Below, piece by piece: positions 33,131 to 36,858 of a DNA stretch of 64,000 nt (position 1 is its first letter; each line of letters opens with the position of its first letter). The DNA is from Bacillota bacterium. Lineage in GTDB: Bacteria; Bacillota; Limnochordia; Darwinibacteriales; Darwinibacteriaceae. A model generated the notes under the pieces. The model was not told the DNA's origin and did not search any database. It saw only the letters and a list, made by a program, of their open reading frames with translations. Location: positions 19,962 to 83,961 of the forward strand of contig DUPN01000050.1 of the NCBI GenBank assembly GCA_012838305.1, in the 5' to 3' direction. The position numbers and the translations under genes are program-made.

Positions 33131-33613
33131 TCACCAAGTGTGTTTCAGAGAATAGGTTCTGAAGTCATTATGTGTGCCGGCCAATAGCAATCCAAGTGCC
33201 AGCAGCACCCGCAGATCCTTCAGCAGAGGATGGGGATCCTGAACCCCTTCAGCCATCAGAAAGGGCACCTTACGAACATGCTCCAAGAACTCCAATTGCT
33301 CATCTGTGAAGCCCGTCAACAGCTTCAGATCCCCTTCCGGCACCAAACTCCGCAATTCTTGGGGTATCCGTTCCAGATCGCCTTCCTGGAAATTGCCATA
33401 GAATGTTCTCCATTGGTCAGTGCTTAAGCCAAGAAACTCTGCAATTTGGGCATTGTTGGCGTATCCCTTTTGCGCGCAGTCAACGGCAATCTTCACCCTC
33501 AACTGAGGATGTCCCTCACACGCCTTCTGCAGGAAGTCCAAAGATGCCTGGACATACGAAGATTCTGAACGAAGAATATTTACCTTCCTCCCGTTTACCC
33601 TCCCTGGTGCCAT
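33131..33613 (-). CDS. hypothetical protein with possible HTH segment
   Basis: 160-aa ORF in intergenic space; GYANNAQIAEFLGLSTDQWRTFYGNF resembles a helix-turn-helix. Confidence 0.6.
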   Translation of the reverse strand: MAPGRVNGRKVNILRSESSYVQASLDFLQKACEGHPQLRVKIAVDCAQKGYANNAQIAEFLGLSTDQWRTFYGNFQEGDLERIPQELRSLVPEGDLKLLTGFTDEQLEFLEHVRKVPFLMAEGVQDPHPLLKDLRVLLALGLLLAGTHNDFRTYSLKHTW

Positions 33614-33684: not shown

Positions 33685-34677
33685 TTATTGTACACTTGGA
33701 TCGGTGGGAACACGTAACAGATCGCCAACTTGGAGGCTGTTAGGATTGGAAATACCATTCTCCTCGGCAATCAGCCGATACAGACTGGGGTCCCCCAACA
33801 ACTCTCCCGCAATGGACCACAAATTGTCCCCGCGCTTCACAACATATTCCACATAGCGAGGTACCGTTGGCGGCGGAGCAATGGTGGTTGTTTCCCGCGC
33901 TGGGGCTGCGGTCTCAGAATCCTCAGTTCCTGGTGCAGGAGATTCCCTGCGAGGAGCGCTTTCCGGCTGCACAGGCTGCATGGTAACCACAGGATCTGGC
34001 TCCATGGCGGTCTGGGTCAGCGGCTGCGGCGGAGGTTCCGGCTGGAAGTACATGTCCCGAATAATGGAGTAGCCTGCTGTACCGCCCAGGATCAGCAAGA
34101 ACACAATCAACACCGCCACGACCATTCTCAGCCAAGGACTGGGTCGATCCAGGGCAATACCCACTTCATTTTCGGCCATATCCCTCAGCACATAATAGCC
34201 GTCTAAACGGCTCCACTCGCCATCGACCACACGATAGGCCGCCCTTTCACTTCCCTGCGTGTCCATGACATAAGCGACTTGCCAGGGTTTGGGGAAGAAA
34301 CGTTGGTGTTGCTCCCGATCGAGCTTGGACAGGAAGACGCCGAATCCTGGATGGGTATGGACCCAGCCAAGGATCTCCTCCCCCGCCTTCAAGGCCATTT
34401 GCACAGTCCTGTAATGATCCTGGTTAATCACCAGGCGCGAAGCATCACTTTTTTGAGGAATGGGCACAAAACGCTCCACCATGAGTTCGTATTGCTCAGC
34501 TGACTTGAGCTCTTGCTTTCTTCCAACCAAAAACCCGCCGTGTTCACCGAGGGAATGGAGATGCGAAAATTGATCGATGGCCAGCATGACTTCCTCGCGA
34601 AAAACCAGGCGCGGAAAAGGACCGGCCTTACCCACTAAGAATCGTCTGGTGGAAAAGGTTATGCGTTCTTTACCCAA
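33685..34677 (-). CDS. JAMM/MPN+ metalloprotease domain - TM helix - LysM domain protein
   Basis: JAMM residues E45 (GEHGG) and HTHPGFGVFLSKLD; TM helix about aa 183-205; Pro-rich linker; LysM YVVKRGDNLWSIAGELLGDPSLYRLIAEENGISNPNSLQVGDLLRVP. Confidence 0.85.
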   Translation of the reverse strand: MGKERITFSTRRFLVGKAGPFPRLVFREEVMLAIDQFSHLHSLGEHGGFLVGRKQELKSAEQYELMVERFVPIPQKSDASRLVINQDHYRTVQMALKAGEEILGWVHTHPGFGVFLSKLDREQHQRFFPKPWQVAYVMDTQGSERAAYRVVDGEWSRLDGYYVLRDMAENEVGIALDRPSPWLRMVVAVLIVFLLILGGTAGYSIIRDMYFQPEPPPQPLTQTAMEPDPVVTMQPVQPESAPRRESPAPGTEDSETAAPARETTTIAPPPTVPRYVEYVVKRGDNLWSIAGELLGDPSLYRLIAEENGISNPNSLQVGDLLRVPTDPSVQ

Positions 34678-34688
34678 GGCACTCCCCC

Positions 34689-35612
34689 CTAAAATATGCT
34701 GAAGTCGAGAACGTCTGACAAACGTCGCAACATGCTGATGCCCACCACGCTATTGCCCTTACGATCCAGGGCAGGTCCATAGGTGGCCAGGCCGTACTGT
34801 CCGGGAACCACGCCCAAAATCCCACCGGAAATTCCACTCTTGGCGGGAATCCCCACCTGGATGGCGAACTCCCCGGACCCATTATACATACCGCAAGTGA
34901 CCATAAAGGTAGACACTAGACGAACGGCATTGGCAGAGACAATGGGGGTACCGGCTCCATTTATACCTTTCGCAGCCAAGAACATGCCTATGCGGGCAAG
35001 GTCCGCACAATTTACTAAAATGGAGCATTGGCGAAAGTACAGATCAAGGACTTCTTCTACATCACCTTCCAGGCCGTTGATATCTTTCAGGAAGTAGGCT
35101 AACGCACGATTGCGATGGCCCGTCTCCTTTTCTGACAAATAAACCGCTTCGTCAATTTCTATCGGCCGATCAAGGATGCTTTCCAGGAGCCCAGAAATCA
35201 GAGAGAAGCGCTCCTCCACGGAAGCGCCTGGAATGAGAGAGCAAACGGCAATCGCCCCCGCGTTAATCATGGGATTCAGGGGCTTCTGCTCCGACGTCTC
35301 CAGCTTGACAATGCTGTTAAAGGAGTCCCCGGTTGGTTCAGAACCAACTTTGGCAAAGACCACCTCGACGCCGCGCCGCTCCAAGGCCACCAACAGGCTA
35401 AAGACCTTAGAGATACTCTGGAGCGTAAAATTCTGTCGCGTATCCCCAGCTTCAAAAAGCCCCCTCGCGGTCATCATGGCTACTCCTGCCATCTGGGGGT
35501 CAGCCTTCTTCAACTCCGGTATATAGCTGGGTAATTGACCGCGCTCTGCATGCTTGCGGCATTCCTGCACTACCTCATTCAAAAGCCCGCTGTAGTCAAA
35601 GACAGAACTCAC
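34689..35612 (-). CDS. glsA: glutaminase
   Basis: GQLPSYIPELKKADP; QSISKVFSL; PLNPMINAGAIAV; NCADLARIGMFLAAKGINGAGTPI; GTG start after ggaggtagagac. Confidence 0.94.
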   Translation of the reverse strand: MSSVFDYSGLLNEVVQECRKHAERGQLPSYIPELKKADPQMAGVAMMTARGLFEAGDTRQNFTLQSISKVFSLLVALERRGVEVVFAKVGSEPTGDSFNSIVKLETSEQKPLNPMINAGAIAVCSLIPGASVEERFSLISGLLESILDRPIEIDEAVYLSEKETGHRNRALAYFLKDINGLEGDVEEVLDLYFRQCSILVNCADLARIGMFLAAKGINGAGTPIVSANAVRLVSTFMVTCGMYNGSGEFAIQVGIPAKSGISGGILGVVPGQYGLATYGPALDRKGNSVVGISMLRRLSDVLDFSIF

Positions 35613-35661
35613 GTCTCTACCTCCAATACAGAACCCATGAGAATCGGCAAAGAGATAGACC

Positions 35662-36858
35662 CTAGGCAGGGTCGTTAAGGGCGCTCCAGACACGAATGGT
35701 ATCCTTCCCTGCCTCCTTTGCTTGATACATGGCCTGGTCTGCAAACAAGAGCAGTTGGTGCTTATCTTTGGCATCTTGAGGCGCCGAAGAAATACCGATC
35801 GATACGGTAATAGGCTTAGTCCAAACGGTCCCCTGGAGGGATTCTAGATTAGTCACGATCCGCTGGGCTACGCGCTGTGCACCGTCACCGGACATATCCC
35901 TGAGCAGCACAACAAACTCGTCACCGCCGTAGCGAATGACCCTATCACCCGATCGGATGCTACTATTAACTGTTTCTACCAACTTCTTAAGGACTTTATC
36001 GCCTTCGCAATGCCCATAGGTATTGTTGTAATCAGAAAAATCGTCAACATCAATGAAAAGCAGGGATGTCGCCTCCTGGGACGGTTCCCCCAGCCAACTG
36101 GTTAAGTAGCGGAAATTGTAGGCTCCAGTCATCTCGTCAACAACCAGTTCTTCCTCCAGTTCCTGCCGGCGGGCCCGCTCACTGCTGACTTCCGCCGCAG
36201 CCTTGAGCAGTCCCGACAGATTCAGTAGTAACAGAGAAAAGGCCAAAATACCCCAAAGTCCATAGCTGATGCCAAAAAACGTGAAGATGACCCCAATGAA
36301 TGCGTTACTCAAATTGCTGTAGAAATTGGGCCACCCCAGCTCTCGGATCTGGTCAAACCAGGTGACTCCCCTCCAGATGGAAACCAGGAGGCAGACTAGG
36401 GCTATGTTGGCAAAAATATAGGCTAAGATACCCCCTGACAGAGCCAGAACGAAGCCCAACCCTGTCGTGCCAAACGTCCTGCTAAAAAGTTGAAGGGTAA
36501 TGGAACCCAAGAAGGTGCACAGGGCAAATTGGGCGGCGTTAAACATCGTCCGCTGCCACTCCTTTTTATGCCTGACACCGTCATAGATACCCCCCAGCAC
36601 CGAAATGGCCATGGCCGGAGTTGGACCGCAGAAATACATGAGGGGCAGCACAGCAGCGGTACTCAAAGAATATTCAATACGATCTCCTATCCGCACCACA
36701 ACGGTCTGCAGATAGAGCATCAAAGCACCAAGTATAAGCATAAAGGGCCAGTTGGCCCAATCCGGGTTTTGATAAAAGGCAATCCCCACAACAACGGTGA
36801 TAACTGCTATCACATAGATGGCCGCGTAAAATAACCTTTCTGATCCTTTAGGCTCCAA
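35662..36858 (-). CDS. membrane-bound diguanylate cyclase (GGDEF domain)
   Basis: multi-TM N-terminus; intact active site RYGGDEFVVLL. Confidence 0.92.
   Translation of the reverse strand: MEPKGSERLFYAAIYVIAVITVVVGIAFYQNPDWANWPFMLILGALMLYLQTVVVRIGDRIEYSLSTAAVLPLMYFCGPTPAMAISVLGGIYDGVRHKKEWQRTMFNAAQFALCTFLGSITLQLFSRTFGTTGLGFVLALSGGILAYIFANIALVCLLVSIWRGVTWFDQIRELGWPNFYSNLSNAFIGVIFTFFGISYGLWGILAFSLLLLNLSGLLKAAAEVSSERARRQELEEELVVDEMTGAYNFRYLTSWLGEPSQEATSLLFIDVDDFSDYNNTYGHCEGDKVLKKLVETVNSSIRSGDRVIRYGGDEFVVLLRDMSGDGAQRVAQRIVTNLESLQGTVWTKPITVSIGISSAPQDAKDKHQLLLFADQAMYQAKEAGKDTIRVWSALNDPA

Follow-up and report, generated by a model that had tools for sequence, protein, structure and literature searches.

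The locus examined here raises the question of what a JAMM peptidase does in a bacterium with no detectable ubiquitin-like (Ubl) tag system, given that enzymes of this class are best known for processing or removing such tags. The gene lies within a window (the whole stretch of 64,000 nucleotides that was analysed) and encodes a protein in which a JAMM site is joined through a transmembrane (TM) helix to a LysM domain. Its parts and its conserved neighbours are collected in Table 1.

Table 1. Features of the JAMM-TM-LysM locus, with positions in the window
Feature	Position	Strand	Details and evidence
160-aa protein, conserved downstream neighbour	33131..33613	(-)	19 loci, at +1 or +2
JAMM-TM-LysM protein gene	33685..34677	(-)	330 aa, TTG start; orthologues in 22/23 family genomes
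C-terminal LysM domain, aa 275-324	33706..33855	(-)	Pfam LysM 1.8e-8; pLDDT around 90 or higher
Pro/Thr/Glu-rich disordered linker, about aa 206-274	33856..34062	(-)	low pLDDT; less constrained than JAMM or LysM
Transmembrane helix, about aa 183-205 (predicted helix 181-211)	34063..34131	(-)	orthologue hydropathy; AlphaFold2
JAMM/MPN+ domain, aa 24-166, Rpn11-like fold (predicted)	34180..34608	(-)	Pfam JAB/Prok-JAB; AlphaFold2; Foldseek
Zinc-site motif H107-x-H109-P-x6-S117-x-x-D120 (HTHPGFGVFLSKLD)	34318..34359	(-)	invariant, 29 aligned proteins
Catalytic Glu, E45	34543..34545	(-)	26/26 in clade
Ribosome-binding site AGGGGGGAG, which overlaps the stop codon of glutaminase	34682..34690	(-)	sequence
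Glutaminase (GlsA), immediately upstream of the JAMM gene	34689..35774	(-)	TIGR03814 5.2e-114
Membrane GGDEF protein, conserved neighbour	35662..36858	(-)	Pfam GGDEF; conserved in 19 loci

The start codon was located 11 bases past the glutaminase stop codon, with AGGGGGGAG upstream; most orthologues had ATG at the same position, and in orthologues the start was preceded by a GGGGAGAG box. Pfam matches above the curated cut-offs were obtained at both ends of the protein, i.e., Prok-JAB (aa 45–137, 1.3e-6) and JAB (aa 48–126, 7.3e-6) towards the N-terminus and LysM (aa 278–324) at the C-terminus, while the JAMM constellation of Glu plus HxHP-x6-S-x-x-D was complete (E45, H107, H109, S117, D120). 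The AlphaFold2 model, which was based on an alignment of 29 sequences (mean pLDDT = 82.9), contained a JAMM fold modelled with confidence (pLDDT by block mostly > 90), the long helix, a disordered linker and a confidently folded LysM domain. An MPN fold is therefore predicted for the window protein. Among solved folds, Foldseek placed Rpn11 first, followed by BRCC36, CSN5 and the archaeal CsRpn11-ubiquitin complex; the TM-score for 6fnn was 0.72, normalised to the target. A sequence profile search of solved structures likewise ranked CsRpn11 and Rpn11 at the top.

The clade holding the window protein comprised 26 sequences (f1, f2 and f5, from loci named Limnochordia, Clostridiales or Bacillota), all of which retained E45, H107, H109, P110, S117 and D120; other than P110, for which only the clade figure applies, these residues were also invariant in the alignment of 29 proteins. 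Of the 23 family genomes, 22 carried the protein, and it was also present in several others of the window's order. Calculated from those pairs with measurable dS, several pairs being saturated, dN/dS was about 0.02–0.06 for the JAMM domain, 0.1–0.5 for the linker and 0.08–0.19 for LysM; within the gene, constraint is thus tightest on the JAMM domain. Since orthologues occurred throughout the family and the JAMM domain was so strongly constrained, chance was excluded, and the combination of JAMM site, TM helix and LysM in one protein was confirmed as real. Domain order, motif, helix and LysM had all been proposed in the original prediction, and each of them proved correct. In a genome of the same genus (L007/L037), an in-frame TAA within the linker split JAMM-TM from the LysM reading frame, which may represent a pseudogene, an assembly error or a natural LysM-less form.

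A scan of genome contigs gave 467 relatives, of which 80 were kept for analysis. Most of these had one TM segment after the JAMM domain, as judged by hydropathy, and for 55 more distant relatives Pfam matched JAB in every case and LysM in 26. They came from Clostridia, Synergistota, Armatimonadota (Zipacnadia), Vulcanimicrobiota, Planctomycetota and others. Relatives in other phyla were mostly found within YukD-type Ubl operons, alongside genes for Ubl, E1, E2, RING and a trypsin-like protease. Clustering of neighbours recovered E1-like proteins in 41 loci, E2/Ubl in 44 (the two being merged in one cluster), zinc-finger proteins in 35 and trypsin-like proteases in 27, with some members of these clusters being chance or antisense joins. 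Examples from the operons were named by Pfam as YukD (1.9e-16), ThiF (5.7e-57), UQ_con (1.9e-8), Prok-RING_1 (3.2e-11) and Trypsin_2 (7.6e-32). The architecture is thus widespread, and the window protein shares its design with the JAMM component of Ubl operons. An earlier proposal that had drawn attention to this domain combination was upheld in that the architecture is real and conserved, but it is not unique, and its wide occurrence in Ubl operons had been missed. The operon Ubl was about 89 aa long and ended in ..PEITAG, with AG invariant in 19 sequences; the suggestion that the substrate would carry a C-terminal GG is accordingly a poor fit, as the Ubls of homologues end differently and none was found in the window's genome.

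Several further features were observed among these relatives. Short acidic-hydrophobic motifs (DFDIDILE, DIDITLQ, EIEILEDE, DIDLEED) recurred at the ends of different Ubl-operon proteins (L058–L112), affecting 21 of 21 trypsin-like proteases (2.1 expected by shuffling) and 21 of 67 JAMMs (3.8 expected), and none of 25 Limnochordia JAMMs; they look like SIM-like Ubl-binding motifs. An E2 (UQ_con) domain was joined to a long stretch that contains membrane segments and has FHA at its C-terminus in L059 (1470–3197) and in the E2 genes of L066, L069 and L072, an arrangement that suggests phospho-regulated, membrane-bound conjugation. In L070, L080, L091 and L092, some of which are from Vulcanimicrobiota, D120 of the JAMM-TM-LysM protein was replaced by Glu and no E1 or E2 genes were found within the flanks examined, making these a possible second orphan group.

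The window's lineage stood apart from these operon-bearing relatives. No E1, E2 or Ubl gene occurred near the window's JAMM gene or in the loci of its family, and the application of profile searches to genomes extended this original observation, made for the immediate neighbourhood, to the whole genome. Across 101 genomes, the window's own among them, neither the E2 nor the Ubl profile produced a credible match, the few matches being short with E > 0.001; the E2 profile scored 174–274 bits in six control genomes. An E2 query that included the FHA domain matched in many genomes, but only through that domain (residues 468–596), and such matches were discarded; the profile just described covered the E2 part alone. 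The E1 profile gave 605–687 bits in controls against one partial match of 61 bits in the window's genome, and no E1 of the matching type was found there, in a search that covered this genome and three relatives. The partial match concerned a 235-aa protein that looks like TcdA. PF08817 matched in two of the controls but in no Limnochordia genome of the 11 searched. PF02597 (ThiS/MoaD) was found in some other Limnochordia, but neither in the window's genome nor in three further members of the family. Any single absence is weak in a genome that is 95% complete, but the absence repeats over the family. A fast-evolving Ubl could nevertheless escape profiles of this kind. Because the same architecture occurs elsewhere mostly in complete YukD-type operons, the window protein is an orphan of that pathway rather than a one-off fusion.

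The gene order usual in the window's family was lon, ysxC, the GGDEF protein, glutaminase, JAMM-LysM and the 160-aa protein, followed by thrS on the opposite strand. Glutaminase preceded the JAMM gene by one position in 17 loci, and the two genes are probably co-transcribed. The 160-aa protein was matched by neither Pfam nor NCBIfam. Eight loci (L047, L050–L052, L054–L057), of which half belong to outer families, contained a PrcB_C-domain protein directly after the JAMM gene; it had an N-terminal hydrophobic segment and, in the four that were scanned, Pfam values of 4.8e-16 to 3e-13. This PrcB-like protein was rejected as a partner, since it adjoined JAMM in those eight loci only and was absent from the window. 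A check for an Rfam element near the JAMM gene produced no support, and a second JAB match in the window's genome (L002) was identified as RadC and set aside.

The position of the TM helix between JAMM and LysM means that only one of the two domains can be outside. The N-terminus had no signal peptide-like character. Lys and Arg residues flanking the helix, summed over 26 proteins, numbered 86 on the N side and 41 on the C side, totals that favour N-in for this Limnochordia set but a weak signal protein by protein; in a wider set, 35 of 68 TM proteins favoured an N-in arrangement. Given the N-terminus, these totals and the homologues encoded beside cytosolic E1, E2 and Ubl genes, a cytosolic JAMM domain and an extracytoplasmic LysM are likely, as had been supposed originally. 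Control of the protease by the state of the cell wall, or a part as an inside-out sensor of the wall, as first suggested, would be putative roles of such a protein.

Eleven homologues from other Limnochordia genomes retained a JAMM-like domain and LysM, in most cases separated by a clear hydrophobic segment, and none had a complete JAMM site. The HxHP motif was changed to HAAP, HARP, HVRP, RLQA, LSHP, ALRF and so on, or E45 was replaced, the latter in 8 of the 11. In the tree, L144 fell inside the clade of intact sites and the remaining broken homologues outside it, which requires at least two losses of the site; the differing substitution patterns suggest more than two. Given long branches and only modest support for the outer group, orthology of the outer homologues is likely but not proven. 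As all eleven keep the architecture with an incomplete site, the ancestral role in Limnochordia may not need catalysis. The GGDEF gene also adjoined the broken JAMM gene of L144, and a signal peptidase I (Peptidase_S26) gene adjoined those of L137 and L139.

The interpretation that we favour, by a modest degree over even chances, is that of a cytosolic JAMM peptidase, tethered to the membrane and anchored to the wall, which is related to the Ubl deconjugases and now cuts a non-Ubl substrate. The single-pass protein would hold an active-looking Rpn11-type JAMM, presumably zinc-binding, in the cytosol, while LysM outside would bind peptidoglycan and so anchor it. In the Ubl-operon relatives, the JAMM would process the tail of Ubl and release Ubl from its targets close to the membrane; in the window's lineage, the enzyme would instead cleave an extended tail or loop of some non-Ubl protein at the membrane's vicinity, and LysM would set the place, and perhaps the time, of cleavage. 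A non-Ubl substrate is the most likely kind because no Ubl, E2 or matching E1 was detectable, yet the site has been kept. Descent from a Ubl-linked form is plausible but not proven, since the tree does not root the group. The fuller scenario, in which an Rpn11-type JAMM left Ubl biology, came to be held at the wall with a non-Ubl target, and turned into a pseudoenzyme in sister lineages, is put forward tentatively, at slightly less than an even chance.

The main rival to this peptidase is a non-catalytic, wall-linked scaffold or sensor, because the architecture persists in sister lineages where the site is incomplete. The JAMM fold would then bind a cytosolic partner while LysM reports or fixes the position at the wall, and catalysis, where kept, would not be the core function. 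Retention of both domains in all eleven broken homologues, across many substitution patterns, speaks for such a role, and it has a parallel in eukaryotes, where the catalytically dead MPN- proteins Rpn8 and CSN6 are scaffolds. A pure scaffold would, however, need neither the invariant site residues nor the strong constraint on JAMM that are seen in the window's clade, and we regard this role as rather unlikely. Less probable again is a true Ubl-processing or deconjugating enzyme whose Ubl, and possibly a reduced E1 as well, exists but has diverged beyond detection. Relatives of the same architecture do belong to Ubl operons, and the alignment still contains the stretch that matches Ins-1 of Rpn11 (for the role of this region, see PMC6043591); against this, the window's genome had no detected E2, YukD-type Ubl, ThiS/MoaD or matching E1, and the acidic-hydrophobic termini of many Ubl-linked JAMMs were absent from 25 of 25 Limnochordia JAMMs. 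Export of the JAMM domain to act on cell-wall peptides is very improbable. LysM is a wall binder, and JAMM and NlpC/P60 wall-hydrolase domains do occur together in phage tail proteins (PMC1779556), but this would conflict with an N-terminus that does not resemble a signal peptide, with the helix that separates JAMM from LysM, with the total K/R counts and with the cytosolic E1, E2 and Ubl partners of homologues.

Comparison with described systems places the protein in the LysM-associated bacterial JAMM group, as JAMM and LysM are found together in one window protein. 'Bacterial lysM-associated JAMM' sequences are named in the legend of Fig. 1 of a 2018 Nat Commun paper (PMC6043591), where they were left out of the map; they share the JAMM core and LysM with the window protein, and the paper is silent on a TM helix, on their context and function, and on any loss of catalytic residues. 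The corresponding phrases occurred in no other paper of the literature searched, nor was any study of the orphan state or of broken JAMM sites found in it, most subscription papers being outside its scope. Predictions of bacterial operons that combine JAB, E1, E2 and Ubl go back to 2006, in a paper that leaves LysM unmentioned (PMC1779556). The JAMM of YukD-type operons is often JAMM-TM-LysM, like the window protein, whose lineage differs in having no detected Ubl, E2, matching E1 or operon neighbourhood. Burroughs, Iyer and Aravind reportedly predicted these YukD-type operons, with E1, E2, Prok-RING_1 and JAMM, in 2011. Rpn11 and CsRpn11 are the best fold matches and the closest solved sequences; unlike the window protein, they work on ubiquitin, either as soluble proteins or within the proteasome lid, and contain neither a TM helix nor LysM. 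BilC and the CBASS JAB deconjugases share the JAMM fold, but their scores of 13.7 and 19.4 bits were very weak and they lack LysM; with no operon of Ubl, E1, E2 or CD-NTase near the window gene, membership of Bil or CBASS was rejected. HvJAMM1 and DRJAMM are also prokaryotic JAMMs, and are described as cleaving SAMP1 or MoaD conjugates; their substrates are Ubls of the ThiS/MoaD type, not found in the window's genome. Membership of the phage-tail JAMM-NlpC/P60 group was dismissed, as Pfam found no NlpC/P60 domain in the window protein.

An intact and strongly constrained JAMM without a detectable tag system, its site broken in sister lineages that nevertheless retain the same wall-linked design, constitutes a natural experiment on the function of LysM-JAMM proteins, and the Limnochordia case bears on how a deubiquitinase-like enzyme changes its job. 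In Clostridia and others, the occurrence of JAMM-TM-LysM proteins in operons with E1, E2, RING and Ubl points to membrane-bound, wall-linked ubiquitin-like signalling in bacteria.
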